A program made the translations under genes and the position numbers. Source: an uncultured Opitutia bacterium (GTDB lineage: Bacteria; Verrucomicrobiota; Verrucomicrobiia; Opitutales; Opitutaceae). Taken from it: DNA of 64,000 bases. A model generated the notes under the pieces. It was not told where the DNA came from. It ran no database searches and saw nothing but the letters and a program-made list of their open reading frames with translations. Of the stretch, positions 53,083 to 64,000 are shown one piece after another. Location of the stretch: contig CAIMFY010000083.1 of assembly GCA_903840415.1 (NCBI GenBank), positions 1 through 64,000 of the forward strand. The letters run 5' to 3'. Positions within the stretch are counted from its first letter, which is position 1. The number at the start of each line of letters is the position of its first letter.

Positions 53083-54105
53083 ATGGCATCGTTTTCGACC
53101 GGTCGGCGCCCCAGTGCGCGCGAGACGGCCGCCGCTAGCGGCGTGCTGGTTGCGTTGCTCGCGATCGCGGCGTGGCTCTGGAGCGTGCAGGCCCATTTCT
53201 CTCCTGCCGTGACTGTCGCGGCCAGCGCCGCGCTGGCAGCAGAGTCGGGGCGAAAATCTGTCGCCGCGCCGGCCAATCTGATTGCAACGTGGCCCGCCGG
53301 ACTGCGGGCGATGGGGCCGATGGAATCGTTTTCGCCCGATACGCTTTCCGACAAAATTGACGGCAAGGCGGAACTCTATCTCTCCGCCGGCTTCGTCGCG
53401 ATGCGCTGCCAACGCATCACCTCCGCGGCTGCATCGGACGCATGGTTCGAGGCTTCCATCTACGACATGGGCCAGCCCGAAAACGCGTTCTCCGTCTACA
53501 GCTCCCAGAAACGCACCGCGACGCAGGAAGCGGGCATCGGCGACTACGGCTACCGCGCCGGCAACCAAATCTGTCTCGTGCATGGACAATATTATCTCGA
53601 ACTCGTCGCAGCCGACGATCGCGAGCCGACACTGCAATCCGCCGCCGAACTCGCCCGCACGTTCATCGCCGCCACCGCCGTCGCCCGCCACGCCAACATG
53701 GCGAAGGACGAAGCGCTTTTCCCGTCCGACGGTATGATCGCTGGCAGCGTGATGCTTCTCAGCGCCGACGTTTTCGGCTTCGATCAGTTGAACAACACCT
53801 ACACCGCGCGCTACCGCGAGGGTAAGGACGACGCCACGCTGTTCCTCTCGCGCCGCGCCAGCCCCGCCGAAGCCGCGCAACTCGCCACGGCGCTCTGCGA
53901 TTTCTTCGTGAAAGACTGCGGCGGCAAGGAAACCGTTGCTCCGACTACGCCGCGCGGCGCGGTGATCATCGATTCGGGCGGCGCGTTTGACGGGGTCTTC
54001 GTCTCGGGCGCGCTGCTCGGCGGCGTGCATCAAGCCGCCAGCCGCGACGCCGCCGAACGCTGGATACAGCGCCTTCACGCCCGCCTCCCCACTCCCACGC
54101 CATGA
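53083..54105 (+). CDS. DUF6599-type protein with N-terminal membrane anchor
   Basis: 340 residues. One hydrophobic segment at about 17-40 ('AASGVLVALLAIAAWLW') would anchor the protein with the rest outside the cytoplasm. The main body ('KIDGKAELYLSAGF', 'ASIYDMGQPENAFSVYSSQKR', 'AGNQICLVHGQYYLELVA') matches, from memory, the DUF6599 family often encoded next to DUF362 and polyferredoxin genes. It overlaps the next gene by four bases (ATGA). Function is unknown, but the neighbourhood points to a redox role. Confidence 0.75.
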   Translation: MASFSTGRRPSARETAAASGVLVALLAIAAWLWSVQAHFSPAVTVAASAALAAESGRKSVAAPANLIATWPAGLRAMGPMESFSPDTLSDKIDGKAELYLSAGFVAMRCQRITSAAASDAWFEASIYDMGQPENAFSVYSSQKRTATQEAGIGDYGYRAGNQICLVHGQYYLELVAADDREPTLQSAAELARTFIAATAVARHANMAKDEALFPSDGMIAGSVMLLSADVFGFDQLNNTYTARYREGKDDATLFLSRRASPAEAAQLATALCDFFVKDCGGKETVAPTTPRGAVIIDSGGAFDGVFVSGALLGGVHQAASRDAAERWIQRLHARLPTPTP

Positions 54106-55103
54106 TCCCGCCCCATCAATCTCCGCTCGATCCTGCCGCGAACCGCCGCGAGTTTCTCCGCCGCGGACTGCAGGCTGGCGCCGCCGTCGCGCTGACCGGC
54201 GGACTCGCCTCGTTGCTGTGGAATCGCCACCCGCCCGGCGACTTCAACCGCGAGGCCGCCTCCGCGCTGCTGCCCGATTTTTCGGACAAGAATGCCGGCC
54301 CGAAGATGGCCATTGTCACCGGACAGAACCGCACCGCGATGGTGCGCCGCGCGCTGGAGGCAATGGGAGGCATCAGCCGCTTCATCAAGCGTGGCGATCG
54401 AGTGATGCTGAAGGTCAACGCCGCCTTCGCGACGCCCGCGATCCTCTCCGCCACCACGCATCCCGAGCTCGCCGCCGAGCTCGTGCGGCTCTGCCTCGGC
54501 GCCGGCGCCGCCTCCGTGCTCGTCACCGACAACCCCATCAACGATCCCGAAAGTTGCTTCAACCTCACCGGCATTGGGCCCGCCGTGCGCGCGGCCGGCG
54601 CCGAGCTCGTGTTGCCACGCGCCGCGCAATTCGCCCCCGGCACGCTGCCGGGCGCTCGATTGATCCGCGACTGGCCGATTCTCCACGAGCCGTTTCGCGG
54701 CATCACGAAACTCATCGGTGTCGCGCCCGTGAAACAGCACAACCGCGCCGGTGCCTCGATGACGATGAAGAATTGGTATGGCCTGCTCGGCGGCCGGCGG
54801 AATCAGTTTCACCAGGACATCAACGGCATTATCGTCGAGCTCGCGATGCTCGTGCGGCCGACCTTCGTCGTGCTCGACGGCACCGCCAGCATGATGGCGA
54901 ATGGCCCCACCGGCGGTTCGCTCGCCGATCTCAAACCCACCCAGACGCTCGTCGTCAGCACCGATGGCATCGCGGCTGATGCCTTCGGCGCCACGCTGCT
55001 CGACAAAACGTTCCGTGATCTGCCCTACATCGCGGGCGCCACCGAACGCGGCCTCGGCACCGCGGATTTCGCGTCGCTCAACCCGGTGCGCGCCGCCGTC
55101 TAG
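54102..55103 (+). CDS. DUF362 protein with twin-arginine signal
   Basis: 333 residues. 'NRREFLRRGLQAGAAVALTGG' is a Tat signal, indicating folded export. The mature part is a DUF362 domain: 'RRALEAMGGISRFIKRGDRVMLKVN', 'PELAAELVRLCLGAGAASVLVTDN' and 'KNWYGLLGGRRNQFHQDIN' in shortened blocks. Many DUF362 proteins carry ferredoxin domains or sit beside them. This one has no CxxC clusters of its own, and the adjoining gene supplies them. It is two bases upstream of the polyferredoxin gene. Confidence 0.85.
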   Translation: MIPPHQSPLDPAANRREFLRRGLQAGAAVALTGGLASLLWNRHPPGDFNREAASALLPDFSDKNAGPKMAIVTGQNRTAMVRRALEAMGGISRFIKRGDRVMLKVNAAFATPAILSATTHPELAAELVRLCLGAGAASVLVTDNPINDPESCFNLTGIGPAVRAAGAELVLPRAAQFAPGTLPGARLIRDWPILHEPFRGITKLIGVAPVKQHNRAGASMTMKNWYGLLGGRRNQFHQDINGIIVELAMLVRPTFVVLDGTASMMANGPTGGSLADLKPTQTLVVSTDGIAADAFGATLLDKTFRDLPYIAGATERGLGTADFASLNPVRAAV

Positions 55104-55105
55104 CG

Positions 55106-57055
55106 ATGAAAATCACCACCGCCCGCCGCCTCACGCAAATTTTTTTCTTCACGCTCTTCGTGTGGCTCTGTCTCGCGGCCACGGTCGGGCCGTTGTGGTG
55201 GCAGTGGCGCGGCTGGCCCATCGCGTGGTTCCTGCAACTCGATCCGCTGGTCGCGCTAGGCACCGTGCTCACGACGCACTCGTTTCATCCGTCGCTTGCC
55301 TGGGCGCTCGTCACGATCGGGCTGACGATTTTGTTTGGCCGCGTGTTCTGCGGATTCGTCTGCCCGTTCGGCGCGCTCCACCAATTTGTCAGCTGGCTTG
55401 GCCGCCTCGGTGGCCGCCCGAAGGACAAGATGGCCGCCAACACCTACCGCCCCGCGCAGGTCATCAAATACTACGTGCTCCTCGCGCTGCTCGCGGCGGC
55501 CGCAGGCAACCTCCTGCTCACCCTCGTGCGCGCCAGTCGTGATTCCACGTGGATCGCGCTCGTCGTGGCGGCGGTCGCTGTGCTCGCGCTGTTCTGGCTG
55601 ACGCTGCGCAAAGTCATCGCGAGTTTTCGTCGCGCCGTTTTATTTGGAGCATTGCTCGTGCTCGTCTGGTTCGGCGCGGCAGCGCTGCTCTCCGTCGAAC
55701 GCCTGACGCTGGCGACACTCCAAATCGGCTGGCTCGATCCGATTCCGCTCGTTTATCGCTCGTTCAATCTCGTCGTCCTGCCCGCCACCGACCTCGCCGT
55801 GGAAAAATGGTTTCCGAGCGGCCGCTTCTACACCGGCGTCGGATTGATCGGCGCGTTGTTTGTGGCGCTCGTGTTGCTGAATCTCGTCGTGCCGCGGTTT
55901 TTTTGCCGCATCCTGTGCCCGCTCGGCGCGCTGCTCGGCGTGATTGGCCGCGGCACGTTGTGGAGCATCGGCAAAACCGGCGCGAAATGCACCGAGTGCG
56001 CGCTCTGCGACGTCGACTGCGAGGGCGCGTGCAATCCCATGGGCCCGATTCGCGTCAGCGAATGCCTGATGTGCATGAACTGCCTCGACAATTGCCCAAG
56101 TGTGCGACCGATCGCCTATCTCCCGCGTCCTTCGTCGGGCGGCGAAATTTCCGCGTCCGGCGTGACGCGCCGCGGCTTCGTGGCCACGCTGATCGCCGGT
56201 GCCGCGGCGGTGCCGCTCGCGCGCCTCGACGGCTCTACCAAGTCCGACTGGTCGCCGAGCCTCATTCGCCCGCCGGGCTCGGTCGCTGAGGAAGAGTTTC
56301 TCGCGCGCTGTCTCAAGTGCGGCGAGTGCATGCGCGTCTGCCCGACCAACGTCCTCCAACCCTCTGGTTTCGCCCACGGCTGGGAATCCGTCTGGACGCC
56401 CGTCCTCAACAACCGCATCGGCACCAGCGGCTGCCAACTCAACTGCATCGCCTGCGGTCATGCGTGCCCTACCGCCGCGATTCGCCCGCTCACGCTCGAC
56501 GAGAAACAAGGCGCCGGTGATTTCACCGAGCACGGGCCGGTGCGCATCGGCCTCGCCTACGTCGATCGTGGACGCTGCCTGCCGTGGGCGATGGAGCGCC
56601 CGTGCATCGTCTGCGAGGAAAACTGCCCCGTCACCCCGAAGGCAATCTACGTGAGCGAAATCGAATCGACCGTGCGCGACGGCACCTTCGCGATCGCCTC
56701 GATCGACGGCGCGACGGTGCGCGTCAGCGGCACGCCGCTGACGCCGGGGCGTTTCGCTTCCGGCGACTACACCTGCAAACTCCCCGACGAAACGCGCAGC
56801 CGCCGCATCGTCGCCAACACCGCCGATTCGCTTACGCTCGACACCGCGCCCACCGCCGAAGAACCGCCGCCGCCCGGTGCCCTGCTCGAGGTGCAGGTGC
56901 GCCTGCAACGCCCCGTCATCGATCCGGCGCGGTGCATCGGCTGCGGCGTCTGCGAGCACGAATGCCCGATGACCGGACTGCGAGCGATTCGCGTCACCGC
57001 CGACAACGAAACGCGTAGCGCCAACCGCTCCATCCTCCTGAAAGGCAGCCGCTGA
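55106..57055 (+). CDS. NapH/NapG-like membrane polyferredoxin fusion
   Basis: 649 residues. The N-terminal half is a NapH/RdxA/CcoG-like membrane part with about five to six helices and the 'FCGFVCPFGALHQFV' and 'FFCRILCPLGALLGV' signatures. Cytoplasmic-type 4Fe-4S motifs follow ('CTECALCDVDCEGAC', 'CLMCMNCLDNCPS'). A second Tat-like hydrophobic segment ('RRGFVATLIAGAAAVPLARL') opens a NapG-like half with at least four further cysteine clusters ('CLKCGECMRVCPTN', 'CQLNCIACGHACPT', 'CIVCEENCPV', 'CIGCGVCEHECPM'). It should pass quinol electrons across the membrane to exported redox partners. Confidence 0.88.
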   Translation: MKITTARRLTQIFFFTLFVWLCLAATVGPLWWQWRGWPIAWFLQLDPLVALGTVLTTHSFHPSLAWALVTIGLTILFGRVFCGFVCPFGALHQFVSWLGRLGGRPKDKMAANTYRPAQVIKYYVLLALLAAAAGNLLLTLVRASRDSTWIALVVAAVAVLALFWLTLRKVIASFRRAVLFGALLVLVWFGAAALLSVERLTLATLQIGWLDPIPLVYRSFNLVVLPATDLAVEKWFPSGRFYTGVGLIGALFVALVLLNLVVPRFFCRILCPLGALLGVIGRGTLWSIGKTGAKCTECALCDVDCEGACNPMGPIRVSECLMCMNCLDNCPSVRPIAYLPRPSSGGEISASGVTRRGFVATLIAGAAAVPLARLDGSTKSDWSPSLIRPPGSVAEEEFLARCLKCGECMRVCPTNVLQPSGFAHGWESVWTPVLNNRIGTSGCQLNCIACGHACPTAAIRPLTLDEKQGAGDFTEHGPVRIGLAYVDRGRCLPWAMERPCIVCEENCPVTPKAIYVSEIESTVRDGTFAIASIDGATVRVSGTPLTPGRFASGDYTCKLPDETRSRRIVANTADSLTLDTAPTAEEPPPPGALLEVQVRLQRPVIDPARCIGCGVCEHECPMTGLRAIRVTADNETRSANRSILLKGSR

Positions 57056-57092
57056 TTTCTTTTCTCCGTCAAAACTCAACCGCCGAAAAATC

Positions 57093-58280
57093 ATGAATAC
57101 TCCATCCGCCCAATTCTCCCGTCGGCAATTCCTCCAAACCACCGGGGCCGTCGGCGTGGGCTCGCTGTTGTTCCGCTCACCGCTGCTGGCCGCTGACGAA
57201 ACGCCGCCGAAAGTCGCGAAGAAAAAATTCGGCCGGACCGGCGTCGAGGTCTCGCACGTCGGCGCCGGCCTCATGTTCGACACCCGCAATGCCGAAGTCA
57301 TCCTTCGCACTGCCCACAACCACGGCGTAAATTACTGGGACACTGCCGCCGGCTACGAGCGCATGGGCAGCGAGACCGGCATCGGCACGTTCTTTGAGAA
57401 GAACCCCGAGGTGCGGAAGGACATCTTCCTCGTCACGAAAGGCCGCGGCGATCTCGCGAAGTCGCTCGACGGCTCGCTCAGCCGGATGAAGACCGACCAT
57501 GTCGATTTGTTCTTCGTGCACGGCATCGACAACATCAGCGCCGTCGACCGGCCGGAGGTGAAGGCGTTTGCCGAAAAAGCGAAGCAGGACGGCAAGATAA
57601 AGTTCTTCGGCTTCAGCTCGCACAACAACATGGCGGCCTGCCTCAGCGGCGGCGCCAAGCTCGGCTGGATCGACGGCGCGATGATCACCTACAACTACCG
57701 CGAGATGCACAAGCCGGAGATGAAGGCGGCGCTCGACGCGTGCGAGCAGGCCGGCATCGGCGTCACCGCCATGAAAACGCTCGGTGGGCGCAGCGGTTCC
57801 GATACACCCGAACAGGCCGCCCTGCTCGCCCCGATCAGCGCCCGTGGTTTCACCCCGGCCCAAGCCAAGCTCAAGGCCGTGTTGGAAAACCCGCAGATCG
57901 CCGTCGCCTGCGTGCAGATGCCCAACATGAAATTCTGCCGCGAAAACATCGCCGCCGCCCTCGATCGCAAGGAGCTCGGCTCCCTCGCACGCGCCGCGCT
58001 CGACTGCCACGCTCAGGCGACGGCGGATCGCTACTGCGGCGGTTGCAACCACCTGTGCGGCGCCGCGGTGGCTGGCGCGGTGCCGGTGCGCGACGTGATG
58101 CGGCACCTCTTGTATTACCACAATTACGCGGAGCTCGATGCCCGCGCGATGTTCGCCGAATTGCCCGCCTCCCAGCGCGCCCAACTCACGCAAATCGACT
58201 ACGAGGCGGCAGAGCGCGTGTGCCCGCATCGCCTGCCGATCGCCCAACTCATGCGCGAAGCCTCCGCGCTGCTCGCCTGA
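57093..58280 (+). CDS. Tat-exported aldo/keto reductase with C-terminal Cys cluster
   Basis: 395 residues. 'FSRRQFLQTTGAVGVGSLLF' is a Tat signal. The TIM-barrel core 'KFGRTGVEVSHVGAGLMFD', 'NYWDTAAGYERMGSE' (catalytic Asp and Tyr) and 'DHVDLFFVHGID' (catalytic His region) follow. After the barrel, 'CGGCNHLCGAA' and 'ERVCPHRLPIA' form a C-x2-C-x3-C plus CP cluster similar to the ferredoxin-like tail of other AKRs of this type. It closes the DUF6599-DUF362-polyferredoxin operon, 37 bp after the polyferredoxin gene. The tail could receive electrons from it. Confidence 0.87.
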   Translation: MNTPSAQFSRRQFLQTTGAVGVGSLLFRSPLLAADETPPKVAKKKFGRTGVEVSHVGAGLMFDTRNAEVILRTAHNHGVNYWDTAAGYERMGSETGIGTFFEKNPEVRKDIFLVTKGRGDLAKSLDGSLSRMKTDHVDLFFVHGIDNISAVDRPEVKAFAEKAKQDGKIKFFGFSSHNNMAACLSGGAKLGWIDGAMITYNYREMHKPEMKAALDACEQAGIGVTAMKTLGGRSGSDTPEQAALLAPISARGFTPAQAKLKAVLENPQIAVACVQMPNMKFCRENIAAALDRKELGSLARAALDCHAQATADRYCGGCNHLCGAAVAGAVPVRDVMRHLLYYHNYAELDARAMFAELPASQRAQLTQIDYEAAERVCPHRLPIAQLMREASALLA

Positions 58281-58298: not shown

Positions 58299-60146
58299 CT
58301 AGCGGTGCCGCCCTTCGAGCAACCGGGCGAGAGCGATCACCGTGGCATCATCGAGGTATTCATGGCCGGCCATCGGCGTGCCGGGCACGCCAAACTTGAT
58401 GATCCGCGCCAGCGCGAACAACCGGTTCGGTTCGTCCGCGCTGATTCGTCGCCACGGGTCGCGGGAGAAATCCGGCGGCTTGATCGAAAGCGACGCCGCA
58501 AGCGGGCCGTCGCCGTGGGCTTCGGGGCCGTGGCAGGCGGCGCAGAGTTGCGAAAAAGTTTTCTGCGCACGGGACTCTGGGTACGGTTGCATCAACGCTT
58601 CCGCGGACGGCATCCAAGCCGTGGCTGCGTCCATCCGAACCGCCAATGTCTCCGCGCCGAGCGATGCCAGATAGGCGACCAGCGATTCACCACGAGCATC
58701 TCCCGGTCGAAATAAATGCGCGTAGCTCGGCATCCGCGATCCTGGCGCCAACGCGCGCGGCGCCATTAGGTGCAGTCGCTGCCACTCGGGCGAACGCCGG
58801 TTGCCCACGTTCATCAAATCCGGACCTTGGCGGCGAAGTCCGAGCAGCGGCGGCGTTTCGGCCAGACTTTCCGCCAACGGTCGCACCGGCCCCCACCACA
58901 GAATTTCCTGCGGCACGCCGGGTCGGAGATATTGCGAGTGGCAGGTGATACAGCCTTCGGCGATGTAGATCTCGCGGCCGCGGCCGATCATTTCGTCGTC
59001 GGCCCGCGCCGGAGGCGAAGTCAGGCCGAGCACCACAACACATCCCAGCGCCGCTGCTGTTGCCGCCGTTCGCCGGTGCGCGACGAGCGCCGAGAAAACC
59101 ACAAGCACCGCGAGCCCGACAAACCACGGCGGAATCGCGTGTAAATCCTGCGCCATCCCAATGCCAAGCGCCGAACCGATCCAACCTGACACTGCAAAAA
59201 TTCCCGCCGCCAGCCACGGACGAGCGCGACATGCCGGATAATAAACCAACGCCACCGAGTAGGCTGAAACTCCCACGGTGTAGAGCACGCGCGCTCCGGC
59301 GATCGTTTCGCCGCTCCCCCCGATGATGAAATCAGCCGCCGCCAGCGCGACCACTGCCACAGCCGCGGTGGCGCCGATCAATCCGGCATCGAGCGCGATC
59401 CCGGCAAGGATGGCGCCCACCAGATGCGTGCCCGCATTGCCATAAAGAATCCAGGCGCCGCTCCACGTTTGCGCGCGCAGGTTGGGCGTGTGCTGCAATA
59501 TATAAAATCCCGCTGAGTCGAGCCACACGAGCGCCAGAAAAATCGCGCCCCACCGCCACCCGCCCCGTCGATCGCCGGCGGTCGCATCCACGACTCCCGA
59601 ACGCATCCAGCCCGTCGCCACCAACCCCACGAGAGCAAAGCCGATCGCCGCAGAAGTCTGAAACGCAGGCGTCGTGGCGAAGACCGCGGGCAAGTTGGCC
59701 AGAGCGTAGGCCAGCCCAGTGCCGAGACCGCAGCAGAGCCCCAGCCGGCGAACTCCGACGACCGCGCGCAGCCCAGACGAAAGCGTGACGGTCGTCCAAC
59801 CCAAGCTCAGCCCAACCCCGGCGACCACCACCCACATTCCCGGTCGTCCCACCGCGAGCGCCGCGATAGCCGACATCGCGCAGCCGGCGAAGCCCGCCGC
59901 CAGCCCGCGACAAAACCGCGCGAGCTGAAATTGTCGCGCGGCGAGAAAACCGCCCGCGACGCCGCTCGCCCCGAGCACGGTAAGCAAAGGTCGCAGCGCG
60001 AATTCATCGCCAAACAACGGCCGCGCCAACTCCAGCAGTGCGAATTCCGCGAACACTAAAAAATATCCGTAGGTCGCCGCGATCGCGACGACGGCGGCCA
60101 AAAACGCGGAGCGGCGCGATGAATCCGGTTGAGCGTCAGCGGGCAT
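58299..60146 (-). CDS. multi-helix membrane domain fused to a di-heme CcoO-like cytochrome c
   Basis: 615 residues. Residues 12-360 contain about ten to twelve membrane helices with MFS-like spacing and no cofactor motif. Then 'GREIYIAEGCITCHSQYLRPG' (heme CxxCH at 399-403) strongly resembles the CcoO subunit of cbb3 oxidases, and 'RMPSYAHLF' provides a likely Met ligand (472). A second heme site 'FSQLCAACHGPEAHGDGPLA' (535-539) resembles CcoP-type cytochromes. A permease-like domain fused to CcoO- and CcoP-like hemes is not an arrangement I know. Its start overlaps the 3' end of the oxidase-like gene by 11 bases. Confidence 0.8.
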   Translation of the reverse strand: MPADAQPDSSRRSAFLAAVVAIAATYGYFLVFAEFALLELARPLFGDEFALRPLLTVLGASGVAGGFLAARQFQLARFCRGLAAGFAGCAMSAIAALAVGRPGMWVVVAGVGLSLGWTTVTLSSGLRAVVGVRRLGLCCGLGTGLAYALANLPAVFATTPAFQTSAAIGFALVGLVATGWMRSGVVDATAGDRRGGWRWGAIFLALVWLDSAGFYILQHTPNLRAQTWSGAWILYGNAGTHLVGAILAGIALDAGLIGATAAVAVVALAAADFIIGGSGETIAGARVLYTVGVSAYSVALVYYPACRARPWLAAGIFAVSGWIGSALGIGMAQDLHAIPPWFVGLAVLVVFSALVAHRRTAATAAALGCVVVLGLTSPPARADDEMIGRGREIYIAEGCITCHSQYLRPGVPQEILWWGPVRPLAESLAETPPLLGLRRQGPDLMNVGNRRSPEWQRLHLMAPRALAPGSRMPSYAHLFRPGDARGESLVAYLASLGAETLAVRMDAATAWMPSAEALMQPYPESRAQKTFSQLCAACHGPEAHGDGPLAASLSIKPPDFSRDPWRRISADEPNRLFALARIIKFGVPGTPMAGHEYLDDATVIALARLLEGRHR

Positions 60147-61404
60147 CGATGTTCTTCGCCTCCTCTCGTCGGAGTGACCGCCACCACCACGACAGCGCTA
60201 CCGCCAGCAGCACGACCCCGGCCAGCAGCCGCGCGCCGTAGATCGCCTGCGTCCACGGCGCCGACAGAAAAAGTTCACCCAGATGCCCCGTCTCCTCCAC
60301 ACCGAGCGCCAGCAACACCGCGCAGTGCGCGAGGCACGCGCCCTGCCACACCCAGAAATAGCGCGGCCGATCCACGCCGCGCAATTCCACCAGCACCGCG
60401 AGATTAGCGCTCGTCACGAGCCCGGCCATCGCGAGATGCGCGTGCGCCACCATGGCGTTGGTGTATTTCAGCCGCTCCGAAATCCCGGGCAGAAAAGTCC
60501 AAAGCCCCGAGCCCACGAGCGCCACCCACCACGCCCATGCCGCGCCCCACCAGCGCCGCGCCGCCGGCTCGCCCCGGCCGCCGGAAAAATAAATCCACGT
60601 GAGCGGCAGCCAGCCGAGCAGCGTCGCCAGACCGGCCACCTGCGCGGCTTCGTGGTGCGAAGCGTTGCCATGCTCGATCCCGATGCACAACGCGACCGAG
60701 AAAACGAAATAGCCCCAATACCAAGCGCGCCGATCGCGGCGGGTGATGGCCAGCACTTCGGCGAGAAAACCGTAGATCGCCACGATCCCGAGAGTCGACG
60801 CCAGCAGGCGTGCCCCGGTGGCGCCGCCACTGTCGGGATTCACGCTCGGATAAACCTCGCGGCCCGCCGACCAGTGCAACGCATTCGGCACGATCAGCAG
60901 GCCGGCCAGCAGGAGTATCCGCGCCGCCAAGCCACCGCGGCTGAACTCCGATCGCCGCCACCAGACATGGGTGGCCAGCAGACTCCAGAGCAGCAGCATC
61001 GCGATCGGCAGCAGCGGCCGCGACCAGCCGTGCCACTCGAGAAAAGGTTTTCCGCTCGATCCGCCGCCAAGCCATGCAACGCCACCCAGCAAGAGCGCCA
61101 GCGACCACACTCTAAGTGCGAGCCGCGCCTGGCCTACCGCGTGCGGATGGCGGACATCCCAGCACCACGCGAGCAGCACGCCGACCAAGGGAAGCGCGCA
61201 GGATCCGTAGAGCTGCCAGTCAAGATGCAGGGGAATCCAGCGCCCGTAGGTCAGCGGCGCCAGCGAATCGTTGAGCGCGGGCCAGACGAGAAGCGCCGCG
61301 AGCAGCACGCCGATCGCATTGCCGGCGGCGAGCCAGCCCAGCGTGTGCCGCGCCACCACGCGCGCCATCTGCGGCTGGATTCCGTCGTGATGCTCCGGCT
61401 TCAC
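60136..61404 (-). CDS. divergent heme-copper-oxidase-like subunit I
   Basis: 422 residues with about twelve helices. 'YGRWIPLHLDWQLYG' (His60) matches the TM2 heme ligand region of CcoN ('GRLRPLHTN'). 'KYTNAMVAHAHLAMAG' (His321, His323) matches the TM10 His-x-His. 'GIEHGNASHHEAA' (His245, 250, 251) lies where CcoN has its copper His pair. The TM6 region expected to hold the third copper ligand and its 'HNAVGF' motif instead reads 'PDSGGATGARLL'. So heme b sites may be kept while the active site is altered. It could be a divergent oxidase, an NO-reductase-like enzyme or a non-catalytic heme carrier. Confidence 0.65.
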   Translation of the reverse strand: MKPEHHDGIQPQMARVVARHTLGWLAAGNAIGVLLAALLVWPALNDSLAPLTYGRWIPLHLDWQLYGSCALPLVGVLLAWCWDVRHPHAVGQARLALRVWSLALLLGGVAWLGGGSSGKPFLEWHGWSRPLLPIAMLLLWSLLATHVWWRRSEFSRGGLAARILLLAGLLIVPNALHWSAGREVYPSVNPDSGGATGARLLASTLGIVAIYGFLAEVLAITRRDRRAWYWGYFVFSVALCIGIEHGNASHHEAAQVAGLATLLGWLPLTWIYFSGGRGEPAARRWWGAAWAWWVALVGSGLWTFLPGISERLKYTNAMVAHAHLAMAGLVTSANLAVLVELRGVDRPRYFWVWQGACLAHCAVLLALGVEETGHLGELFLSAPWTQAIYGARLLAGVVLLAVALSWWWRSLRREEAKNIDAR

Positions 61405-62078
61405 GCGTCAGACACTTTTCCGTTGCGCACCCGCAACCACCGGTGACACGCCTCGGCAAATCGCCGCTCGTGAGTCGCGAGCACGACGGCGATGCCGTTC
61501 CGGACCGCTAGCTCTTTCAACAGGGAAAAAATCAGATCGCCGGTCGCCTCGTCCAACGAGCCGGTCGGTTCGTCCGCCAGCAACAGCCGCGGCTCGTTCA
61601 TCAGCGCGCGGCAGATGGCCACGCGCTGGCGTTCTCCGCCCGATAAATCCTGAATGCGGTGCTTCAGCCGATGCGCAATCCCCACCTGTTCAGCGAGGGT
61701 GCGGATTCGCGCCGTGGTCTGCGCCGTCGGACGACCGACGGCCAGCGCCGGCACGCGCAAGTTTTCCTCGACCGTCAAATCGGCGATGAGGTTGTGCAGT
61801 TGAAAGACAAACCCGAGATGCCGCCGCCGCAGTTCCAGCCGATCCGATTCCCGCCGCGGATCGTGTCCGCAGACGTGCAGTTCGCCGCGATCAGGCACAT
61901 CGAGCCCACCGATCAGGTGCAACAGCGTGCTCTTGCCGGAGCCCGACGCACCCCACAGGGCCACCATCTCGCCCGCGCGCACCTCGAGCGAAGCGCCCTG
62001 CAACACCGGCACGCGGCCCTCGTCGTAGGCCTTCCACACCTCTTGGACGGTGACGAGAATTTCCCGGGCCTCACTCAT
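61401..62078 (-). CDS. ABC transporter ATP-binding protein (MacB/LolD type)
   Basis: 225 residues from the ATG at 62078 (MSEAREILV). Walker A 'ALWGASGSGKSTLLHLIGG', Q-loop 'LGFVFQLHNLI', signature 'DLSGGERQRVAI' and Walker B 'LLLADEPTGSLD' are complete, with the H-loop in 'VLATHERR'. It energises the FtsX-type permease whose gene overlaps its start by eight bases. Such pairs extract lipids or lipoproteins, export peptides, or support complex assembly. Here the downstream overlap with the oxidase-like gene suggests a role in building that complex. Confidence 0.92.
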   Translation of the reverse strand: MSEAREILVTVQEVWKAYDEGRVPVLQGASLEVRAGEMVALWGASGSGKSTLLHLIGGLDVPDRGELHVCGHDPRRESDRLELRRRHLGFVFQLHNLIADLTVEENLRVPALAVGRPTAQTTARIRTLAEQVGIAHRLKHRIQDLSGGERQRVAICRALMNEPRLLLADEPTGSLDEATGDLIFSLLKELAVRNGIAVVLATHERRFAEACHRWLRVRNGKVSDA

Positions 62079-63183
62079 AGCGCAACGCCTCCGCCGGTTG
62101 AATACTCGATGCATACCGCGCCGGATAGATCGCCCCGCCCACGGCGGTGACGAGCGCGGTCACGACGATGCCGATCACCACGCCGGGTCCGACCGTCGCC
62201 TGCACGTAACCTTGAAACTGCGGGAGGTGCGGCAACCCAGCCAGCACCGCCAACCCCAAGGCAAAGCCAAGGGCGAGCCCGGCCAGAGCCACCGCCATCG
62301 CCTCGCCAAAAATTAGCACCGCCACCTGCCCCTCGGAAAATCCACACACCCGCAGCACCGCGATTTCGCGGATGCGACTGAAGACGGAGAGCAACATCGT
62401 GTTGGCGACGCCCAAGCCGCCGAGGAGAAACGCGCAGAGTCCCACGGCCCACGCGGTAGTCTTCATCACGCGAAACGAGTGATAGCTCTGGTTGAATTCG
62501 CGATTCTCGAGCGCGATGAGCCCCGGATGCGCTGCTTCCACCGCGCGCTTGAAGTCCGCGCCCGCCGACTGATCGCGCAGTTTCACCGCCACCACCGAGC
62601 AGACTCCACCGCGGTGGAAAAATTCCTGCGCCGCCCCGAGCGGCATGAAAACGCCGCCGTCCTCGAACCCATTCTCCGTTTTCAAAATCCCCGCCACGCG
62701 CCACGTCGTCGCGCCGATGGGCACGTCGTCACCGAGGCGGGCCGACAGGAATTCCGCGGCCCGGGCGCCGAGGAAAATCTCGCCCAGACGACGGCCAAAC
62801 TCCGCGCGATTGCCCGCGATCCATTCCGCGCGCTCCAGTCGCGGATCCTCAGCCGTGACGCCGAAGCAGGTGATCACCGGAAACCCAGGAGACGAGACGA
62901 TGCCAAACAGAAGCGGATGCGCCGACTCGACGTTGGGCAGCGCCCGGATCGCCGCCCGATCCTCATCGCGCACCGCGCTGAAAAATAGATCGGACACGTT
63001 TTTTTCCAGCACCAGATAATGACTGTCGGTGGCGAGGATGCGCTCGAACATCCCGATGGCGCCGTTGACGATACCGAGAATCGTGAGCATGGCCGCCACG
63101 CCAAAGCCAATGCCCGCGATTCCGATCAACGCCCGCAACCGGTGCCGGCGAAGATTCACGACGATGAGGGACAGAAATCGCAT
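62071..63183 (-). CDS. FtsX/MacB-like ABC permease
   Basis: 370 residues. One N-terminal helix ('LRALIGIAGIGFGVAAMLTI') is followed by a periplasmic MacB-core domain of about 220 residues and three C-terminal helices ('AVGLCAFLLGGLGVANTMLL', 'AVLIFGEAMAVALAGLALG', 'GVVIGIVVTALVTAVGGA'), the standard four-helix layout. 'IREIAVLRVCGFSEGQV' is the coupling segment to the ATPase. It is encoded directly before its ATPase and two bases after the polyprenyl synthase gene, all in one minus-strand operon. Confidence 0.9.
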   Translation of the reverse strand: MRFLSLIVVNLRRHRLRALIGIAGIGFGVAAMLTILGIVNGAIGMFERILATDSHYLVLEKNVSDLFFSAVRDEDRAAIRALPNVESAHPLLFGIVSSPGFPVITCFGVTAEDPRLERAEWIAGNRAEFGRRLGEIFLGARAAEFLSARLGDDVPIGATTWRVAGILKTENGFEDGGVFMPLGAAQEFFHRGGVCSVVAVKLRDQSAGADFKRAVEAAHPGLIALENREFNQSYHSFRVMKTTAWAVGLCAFLLGGLGVANTMLLSVFSRIREIAVLRVCGFSEGQVAVLIFGEAMAVALAGLALGFALGLAVLAGLPHLPQFQGYVQATVGPGVVIGIVVTALVTAVGGAIYPARYASSIQPAEALRYE

Positions 63184-63184
63184 C

Positions 63185-64000
63185 TCAGGCGGCGATGAAC
63201 AGCCGATAGCGCGTCAGCAACAGCCGTTCATGCCAGTCCGCCAGATAAGTCCACCGAGGATCGCGCTGGCAGAGTTGTCGCACCTGCGTGTCGGCGCGCG
63301 CCAGCAACCGCTCGATCCGGCGGCGCGTGAGTGGGGCGCCGAGGGCGATAGTCAGGTTGGGTCGGTTCAAGGCGGCATCGCGCCCCGGAGTTTTTCCGCT
63401 GCCGCCTTTCGGCACCGACACGTCGAGCAAGTCGTCCATCGCCTGATAGGCGAGCGCCCAATAAACGCCGAGCGCCCGCAACGCCCGTCGTTCGCGCTGC
63501 CATGCTCCTGACGGCAGCAGCGGCAGGCTCAGGGCGAGCCACAGGAGCGCGCCGGTTTTGCGCCACGCGATGCGGCCGACTTCGCGCGGAGCACCTTGCC
63601 CGTGACCAAAACGCAAATCCCACGCCTGACCACTGAGAATCCCCGCGGCGCCCAAGGCGGATTCGACGAGTGCACAGGCCTGTTCACGCACCTCGACCGA
63701 CTCCGACAAATAGGCCCGCTGCACCAACGCGTAGGCGCGGTTGATCAATCCCAGCGCCGCCAAGATCGCGGTGGCTTCCCCGTGCGTGCGGTGCAGACAA
63801 GGCAAGCCGCGTCGCTGCTCCGCATCGTCCATGCACGGCAGATCATCGAGAATGAGCGAGGCCTGATGCCAATATTCCAAGGCGCAGGCGAGTTGCTCCG
63901 CGGCCGCCGGGCGCAACCCGTGGTTGTGGGCCGCCGCCATAATCAGCCCCGCGCGGACCATCCGGCCCGGATGGGCCACCGCTTTTTCCAATGCTTCGCG
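63185..64000 (-). CDS. polyprenyl diphosphate synthase, 5' end beyond the window
   Basis: At least 271 codons, still open at the right edge ('REALEKAVAHPGRMVRAGLI'). 'SLILDDLPCMDDAEQRRG' is the first aspartate-rich motif and 'AYQAMDDLLDV' the second, though the latter lacks one of the usual three Asp residues. The length and the early motif fit short-chain (C15-C20) trans-prenyl synthases. It would supply an isoprenoid for quinones, carotenoids, hopanoids or heme side chains. It shares an operon with the FtsX/ABC and oxidase-like genes. Confidence 0.85.
   Translation of the reverse strand, partial: REALEKAVAHPGRMVRAGLIMAAAHNHGLRPAAAEQLACALEYWHQASLILDDLPCMDDAEQRRGLPCLHRTHGEATAILAALGLINRAYALVQRAYLSESVEVREQACALVESALGAAGILSGQAWDLRFGHGQGAPREVGRIAWRKTGALLWLALSLPLLPSGAWQRERRALRALGVYWALAYQAMDDLLDVSVPKGGSGKTPGRDAALNRPNLTIALGAPLTRRRIERLLARADTQVRQLCQRDPRWTYLADWHERLLLTRYRLFIAA

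Follow-up and report, generated by a model that had tools for sequence, protein, structure and literature searches.

An oxidase-fold membrane protein lacking the TM6 copper histidine and its permease-cytochrome partner, possibly a redox complex for an isoprenoid lipid

Can a heme-copper oxidase subunit keep its heme ligands, give up its catalytic metal site and serve another purpose? The question is raised by a 64,000-nucleotide stretch of DNA from an uncultured Opitutia bacterium of the Verrucomicrobiota (contig CAIMFY010000083.1, positions 1 to 64,000; hereafter "the window"), in which two adjoining genes encode an oxidase-like membrane protein, P1, and a permease fused to cytochrome c domains, P2. 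Both open reading frames (ORFs) are present as claimed in an initial annotation made from the letters alone, which considered the pair as a possibly novel respiratory or nitric oxide (NO)-handling complex, or as a heme-bearing electron conduit. Catalytic copper or iron is treated as a defining feature of the heme-copper superfamily. The architecture of P1 and P2 and the loss of the copper site are, in our assessment, highly probable, and the gene cluster to which they belong looks like an undescribed redox machine.

Single-sequence searches of Pfam and of the Protein Data Bank (PDB) returned nothing useful for P1, with no match to PF00115. Its N-terminus gives a weak NCBIfam match to a bifunctional CcoN/CcoO model (9.2e-4), and the window P1 matches the ccoN model TIGR00780 at 7.7e-4 and 19.7 bits, far under the curated cut-off. 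A homologue in genome G099 reaches PF00115 at 2.9e-8, with 33.6 bits alone and 41.4 bits with its frame neighbours, for a cut-off of 34.8. The family was collected from 99 loci (L030-L128), three of which are interrupted by a stop codon in the matched part (L053, L096, L103). Near-duplicates (L050, L052, L072, L116, L120) and partial sequences (L088, L127) were dropped, leaving 89 homologues, 87 of which (all but L077 and L128) form the rows of alignment A3. The profile of these 87 homologues, run with hmmsearch against PDB sequences, has two CcoN chains as its top matches, 9g6b_A (0.0021) and 3mk7_A (0.23); the third and last is a short match to a chlorophyll-binding protein (0.56), and no NorB chain was matched. 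Family against family, hhalign gives 93.1% over 391 columns with 17 ccoN sequences and 98.2% over 388 columns with 7 CcoN-like sequences. Kinship to the aa3/caa3 oxidases by sequence was rejected (0.1% with 21 caa3 sequences); the fold is nonetheless common to both.

The AlphaFold2 model of P1, built from the 87-row alignment, displays twelve transmembrane (TM) helices, with a predicted local distance difference test (pLDDT) score of 93.2 and a predicted template modelling (pTM) score of 0.92. Its best Foldseek match is 9g83_t (2.7e-9), a chain of a cbb3 supercomplex that we take to be CcoN. In VIA-align, it superimposes on CcoN 9g6b_A with a Z of 27.9 (root-mean-square deviation (rmsd) 4.2, 401 residues), on cNOR 4xyd_A with 27.6, and on CcoN 3mk7_A with 27.5, three values that amount to ties. 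On the strength of the modelled fold in Foldseek and VIA-align and of the CcoN profile matches, P1 is a member of the heme-copper oxidase superfamily by fold, the C family being the nearest by sequence. The initial annotation had allowed that P1 might fall outside this superfamily; both structural comparisons put it inside.

The heme ligand positions are those of an oxidase. When the family is aligned with ccoN by hhalign, the TM2 His falls on H60 and the TM10 pair on H321 and H323, where the initial annotation had also seen them. The two bis-His positions of the low-spin heme (H60, H323) and the proximal position of the high-spin heme (H321) are thus all present in the window P1. H60 and H321 are invariant in the 89 homologues, and H323 is found in 77 of them. 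The metal site tells a different story. The TM6 stretch (residues 190-201) reads PDSGGATGARLL and is devoid of His, as had been reported. The TM6 copper His aligns with residue 198, occupied in the 87 rows by Ala (61), Ser (14), Thr (5) or His (3), hence non-His in 84 and Ala, Ser or Thr in 80. Residue 195 is Ala, Pro or Thr, and within the TM6 helix (197-217) the only other His, seen in four sequences, is at the inner end (position 216). The first TM7 copper His aligns with residue 246, a Gly in 49 rows. The cbb3 oxidases carry a cross-linked Tyr in TM7; the corresponding position 240 holds Tyr in 11 of 87 rows and Cys in the window P1.

An HH pair had been assigned to the TM7 position. The pair does exist (H250/H251), but it is located in the loop between TM7 and TM8 (model helices 223-242 and 253-273), some four positions beyond residue 246. 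H250 is kept in 85 of the 89 homologues and H251 in 63, and at least one His is found at 250/251 in all 89. Since residue 198 is mostly Ala, Ser or Thr and the TM7 positions are not conserved, the three-His metal site (CuB/FeB, from TM6 and TM7) is, as judged from the alignments, absent from the P1 family. The prospect of a standard copper centre with misplaced ligands, which the initial annotation had left open, finds no alignment that places three His at the copper positions. H250 could serve as one metal ligand. The pattern of kept and lost ligands, judged from 89 full-length homologues belonging to several phyla, is beyond chance.

A second ligand-poor CcoN-like protein occurs in the same genome (L003, G000:C9:49216-50433; 478 residues, PF00115 at 95 bits), with no His in TM2 (GRIVAMQESIFIYGW) and a single TM10 His (VIGHAAIAFTG). 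Weak PF00115 matches of similar size also stand beside a strongly matching PF00115 gene in genomes G091 and G407.

Conservation in P1 is markedly one-sided. Positions identical in at least 90% of the rows were counted on the modelled helices, with an N-in topology that we assigned by the superfamily rule. On the outer side, 38 of 139 positions in the TM halves and 17 of 80 in the loops are conserved, against 15 of 145 and 2 of 58, respectively, on the inner side. The conserved residues of the inner TM halves are Trp, Gly, Pro, and Leu only; in the alignment, the cytoplasmic membrane half of P1 contains no protonatable residue that reaches 90% conservation. The same half harbors 20 conserved polar residues in the 17 ccoN sequences, which are close relatives of one another, making the contrast no more than indicative.

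P2 joins, as had been described, a membrane permease to CcoO-like and CcoP-like heme domains. Its AlphaFold2 model (pLDDT 90.4, pTM 0.76) displays a major facilitator superfamily (MFS) fold of 12 helices at residues about 8-357, which superimposes on 9dwy with an rmsd of 3.2 over 326 residues. Foldseek returns 113 matches at 0.001 or better for this part (best 4.2e-6), and the top 50 of the 113 are transporters of MFS fold by title. Pfam finds nothing in the permease part of the window protein, and MFS_1 at 9.7e-4, under the cut-off, in the homologue L042. A short hydrophobic helix (361-374) follows and, in the model, would place the cytochromes on the outer side. The CcoO domain is recognized by the FixO Pfam model (1.7e-25) and by 3mk7_B (8.5e-19), and the C-terminal domain is CcoP-like with a single CxxCH. 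The CcoP of cbb3 oxidases is a di-heme protein; the C-terminal domain of P2 with its one CxxCH is not, and a separate CcoP elsewhere was not searched for. Out of 86 P2 homologues, 74 were chosen for alignment A4 for having the MFS part and a length of 540-700 residues. Two CxxCH motifs are present in 73 of these 74, the CcoO CxxCH His and Met472 in all, and Met592 in 72. In the MFS part, D210, Q218, W228, and H241 are each invariant (74/74). A role as a CcoA-like copper importer was considered for this part and rejected: MxxxM occurs anywhere in it in 16 of 74 rows, and HxxxM in 7.

In three loci (L043, L044, L046), a single open frame spans P1 and P2, and the small membrane protein gene c6 lies between them in a different frame. 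This arrangement may reflect an artefact, overprinting of a gene or the loss of a stop codon, and a fusion protein is doubtful. These loci were not counted as natural P1-P2 fusions, c6 being situated in the other frame inside the supposed linker.

P1 belongs to a discrete and widespread family. Of 387 genomes in its own phylum, 20 encode a member at 1e-30, one of them being its own genome. A wider contig scan matched 171 stretches, 121 of them encoding a relative, of which the best 80 were kept (79 loci). These 80 come from Verrucomicrobiota, Acidobacteriota, Bdellovibrionales (two), and one record labelled Rhodanobacteraceae, which branches among Acidobacteriaceae in a quick tree and may be mis-binned or transferred. 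Carriers among the Acidobacteriota include Terriglobus roseus, Edaphobacter modestus, and Acidipila rosea.

The neighbours of P1 recur as well. They were tallied in tight windows over the 94 loci that remain when five duplicates are removed from the 99, and each count is taken among loci whose flank is long enough. On the lipid side, the isoprenyl diphosphate synthase is found in 63 of 74 loci, the ABC permease in 71 of 82, and the ABC ATPase in 75 of 86; on the cytochrome side, the MFS part is found in 80 of 86, the CcoO domain in 77 of 79, the CcoP-like domain in 73 of 79, and c6 in 76 of 88. The latter has a weak DUF4345 match (9.6e-5, under the cut-off) and is missing from the window's own cluster. 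A YceI gene lies upstream in 56 of 73 loci, and anywhere in the stretch in 65 of 73 after a YceI profile had found nine of the remaining 17. In five Acidobacteria loci, YceI directly follows P2; Pfam confirms the YceI of L091 and L094. In the contig studied here, the YceI gene is the next one beyond the window, at about 64096-64839 (Pfam 9.2e-17). ABC genes are absent from some Bdellovibrionales and Acidobacteriota loci, in which the synthase immediately precedes P1. Among other neighbours, a two-component system recurs in 39 loci, a metallo-beta-lactamase-fold protein in 28, and an MMPL exporter in 7.

Overlaps with an ABC transporter gene and with a polyprenyl synthase gene had both been claimed for the pair. 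The former holds, the start of P1 overlapping the ABC ATPase gene end by 4 nt; the synthase gene does not overlap the pair and is located upstream of the ABC permease gene. In turn, the P2 start is inside the P1 end, with an 11-nt overlap. Because the starts of P1 and P2 overlap the ends of the preceding genes, the translation of the ABC ATPase, P1, and P2 is probably coupled.

A link of the cluster to isoprenoids is suggested by its synthase and YceI genes. The genome possesses three PF00348 genes, the cluster copy scoring 119.5 bits versus 209.4 and 201.7 for the other two. Three such genes are found in seven of nine genomes examined, and two are present in G283 and G360, whose clusters have no synthase. 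By its sequence, the cluster synthase is an extra, divergent isoprenyl-diphosphate synthase paralogue. All 53 synthases selected by their first Asp-rich motif have the second one, and at position -5 Ala occurs 52 times and Ser once. Under the chain-length rule, which we assume to apply here, this small residue suggests a product longer than farnesyl. In the accessible part of PMC9113575, YceI structures are described as containing octaprenyl phosphate, octaprenylphenol or ubiquinone-8, and the YceI-family protein BcnA is described as acting with the membrane cytochrome LcoA against lipid peroxyl radicals. A chorismate-binding enzyme, to be compared with menaquinone synthesis, is present in two loci (L086 and L091; found by motif, then by Pfam).

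Taken together, these features are best accounted for by a membrane cytochrome complex that would derive from a cbb3-type (CcoN/CcoO) core and have lost the copper part of its active site. Electrons would flow between the two c hemes of P2 and the hemes of P1 on the extracytoplasmic side. Their redox partner may be a quinone-like isoprenoid lipid, with a prenyl chain provided by the cluster synthase. YceI and the ABC transporter would carry this lipid, the transporter loading or extracting it, and the MFS domain may move the lipid or a co-substrate. Such a complex would oxidise or reduce an isoprenoid lipid instead of reducing O2 to water. The statement as a whole, a copper-free b/c cytochrome complex that trades electrons with an isoprenoid lipid carried by YceI, is put forward as a tentative reading to which we give somewhat less than even weight, and the isoprenoid-redox role taken by itself is more tentative still. 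The earlier suggestion of a novel, heme-bearing electron conduit agrees with the predicted fold, the conserved heme ligands, the c-heme partner, and the lack of a matching paper: a full-text search of open-licence PubMed Central (PMC) papers, whose coverage excludes subscription papers, found no description of the system.

A number of observations weigh against this proposal. The aligned TM6 position does hold a His in 3 of 87 sequences (L078, L079, L084), and the contrast with ccoN in the inner half draws on close relatives. H323 is lost in 12 of 89 homologues, in two events of the quick tree, so the low-spin heme would be inessential in places or bound otherwise; one of these losses is a group of 11, all Acidobacteriaceae or Acidobacteriota where classified, except for the Rhodanobacteraceae-labelled record. 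In tight windows, the seven genes or domains of the cluster (c6 excluded) are together in only 36 of 63 loci; 11 of 74 loci lack the synthase and 11 of 82 the ABC permease, and no YceI was detected in 8 of 73. No MFS part is present near P1 in six of 86 loci, four of which (L035, L036, L040, L070) have the CcoO domain nonetheless; in the other two (L071 and L073, of Opitutaceae type), P2 is complete and does not adjoin P1, lying about 9 kb downstream. The futalosine-pathway marker PF02621 is absent from the genome itself, and the isoprenoid link is read from gene neighbourhood.

The main rival is a divergent O2 or NO reductase, in which a rebuilt metal site or a bare high-spin heme would operate with H250/H251 and a residue near TM6. 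The invariant H321 position and the presence of at least one His at 250/251 in every homologue would suit such an enzyme, to which the CcoO-like domains could supply electrons as in cbb3. Counting against it are the lack of a conserved protonatable residue in the cytoplasmic half, the loss of the TM6 His, and the poor conservation of the cross-link Tyr; cNORs too take their protons from outside. In addition, the genome already has three further PF00115 genes, and the isoprenoid genes would be left unexplained. As to NO handling, there is no direct evidence either way; no NO gene is present among the identified recurrent neighbours (8 of 13 recurrent clusters identified). In its favour again, the three His198 sequences all carry N250, which hints at a single pocket for position 198 and the 250/251 loop, so these positions may share a site; in the quick tree, His198 arises once, and H250 changes twice. 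The replacement of a metal-site His does not by itself imply loss of function, since one such His is replaced by Asn in putative NO dismutases, as presented in an excerpt of PMC3413370. A gas reductase is, on this balance, unlikely.

Redox-coupled transport would have the MFS domain move a small solute or a metal, which the hemes would oxidise or reduce at the outer face. The close match of P2 to the MFS fold and its invariant polar residues D210, Q218, and H241 are in line with such a function, which is difficult to reconcile with the six loci deprived of an MFS match near P1, and with the low occurrence of the CcoA copper motifs. It is considered improbable, and the same low standing is given to a non-catalytic scaffold or assembly factor, in which the P1 hemes would be structural or represent a heme-delivery stage. 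The decayed active-site ligands and the two losses of H323 would be expected of a scaffold; the invariance of H60 and H321, the two CxxCH of nearly all P2 rows, and the strongly conserved outer face would not. An ordinary cbb3 oxidase whose ligands the initial annotation had misplaced, for which CcoN being closest in fold and sequence and the genuine CcoO domain would speak, is dismissed as barely credible, as alignments of 87-89 sequences display neither a three-His site nor a conserved cross-link Tyr, and the CcoP-like part has one heme motif. A lipid-linked cytochrome complex is retained as the preferred reading.

The coordinates of P1, P2, and the adjacent genes are collected in Table 1. 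Convergent towards P2, the window harbors at 54102-58280 (+) genes for a DUF362 protein, a NapH/NapG-like polyferredoxin, and an aldo/keto reductase with a Tat signal, none of which was seen in the neighbour clusters that recur around P1 homologues. A plasmid comparison of the window gave no match. In 30 loci, L087 and L125 included, a small secreted-looking protein (about 170 residues) is encoded near YceI, mostly upstream and on the other strand; the L087 copy has no Pfam family. In L042, L090, L091, L099, L109, L127, and L128, a metallo-beta-lactamase-fold protein and/or an MMPL-like exporter (read from sequence, and by Pfam in L099) comes after P2; these too are lipid-type genes.

Table 1. 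Features of the P1/P2 locus in the window
Feature	Position	Strand	Basis
P1: heme-copper-oxidase-fold subunit, 422 aa, 12 TM, GTG start, without TM6 copper His	60136..61404	-	intact ORF, profile alignment, AlphaFold2 model
H60 codon: TM2 low-spin heme ligand position	61225..61227	-	89/89 homologues, hhalign
GGATG motif (residues 193-197), directly before TM6 position aligned to copper His	60814..60828	-	alignment
H250 codon: His of TM7-TM8 loop	60655..60657	-	85/89 homologues
H321 codon: TM10 proximal heme ligand position	60442..60444	-	89/89 homologues, hhalign
H323 codon: second low-spin heme ligand position	60436..60438	-	77/89 homologues, hhalign
P2: MFS permease-CcoO-CcoP fusion, 615 aa	58299..60146	-	intact ORF, Pfam, AlphaFold2, fold comparison
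MFS-fold domain of P2, about residues 8-357	59076..60125	-	Z 30.0 to 9dwy (model 13-357)
CcoO/FixO-like mono-heme domain of P2 (389-480; CxxCH, Met472)	58707..58982	-	Pfam
CcoP-like single-heme cytochrome c domain of P2 (526-608; CxxCH, Met592)	58323..58571	-	Pfam
LolD-like ABC ATPase; 4 nt overlap with P1 start	61401..62114	-	profile matches
FtsX/MacB-type ABC permease	62071..63183	-	profile matches
Isoprenyl diphosphate synthase, third divergent copy in genome; continues past window end	63185..64000	-	profile match

If true, the proposal would show that the oxidase scaffold is able to take on a different redox function, with its heme ligands kept, its metal site dismantled, and its CcoO subunit fused to an MFS permease. 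In Verrucomicrobiota and Acidobacteriota, it would also provide a testable connection of cytochromes with YceI lipocalins and with a dedicated isoprenoid synthesis; named cultured hosts include the three Acidobacteriota species mentioned above and Haloferula luteola.

Among known systems, the cbb3 oxidases (CcoN/CcoO/CcoP) are the closest. P1 shares the CcoN fold and the TM2/TM10 heme ligand positions, P2 has a real CcoO domain, and P1 displays SGKxFLDW where CcoN carries SKEY..E, a site that is presumably near the CcoO interface. In contrast to these oxidases, P1 lacks the TM6 copper His, has no conserved cross-link Tyr or TM7 His pair, and conserves no protonatable residue in the cytoplasmic half, while the CcoO of P2 is fused to an MFS permease and its CcoP-like part possesses one heme motif. 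NnrS, a heme protein of ~400 residues with 12 TM helices, resembles P1 in size and helix number; kinship was nevertheless rejected, as hhalign gives 1.4% (7 usable sequences of 9 fetched) and PF05940 is not matched at E 10. NorBC has the same fold as P1, its 4xyd_A chain being tied with CcoN, and the putative NO dismutases share a replaced metal-site His (excerpt of PMC3413370). Unlike both, P1 loses more of the metal site, and its profile matched CcoN and no NorB chain. The copper importer CcoA, characterized by MxxxM and HxxxM motifs in the accessible part of PMC6362234, is likewise an MFS protein linked with cbb3 oxidases; the MFS part of P2 differs in being fused to cytochrome c and in not conserving these motifs. 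Finally, the LcoA-BcnA lipid-peroxyl defence couples a membrane cytochrome gene to an isoprenoid-binding YceI lipocalin (PMC9113575, in part), as does the cluster described here. Its cytochrome b561 is, however, unrelated to the heme-copper-oxidase-fold P1, and the P1/P2 cluster adds an isoprenyl synthase, an ABC transporter, an MFS domain, and c hemes.

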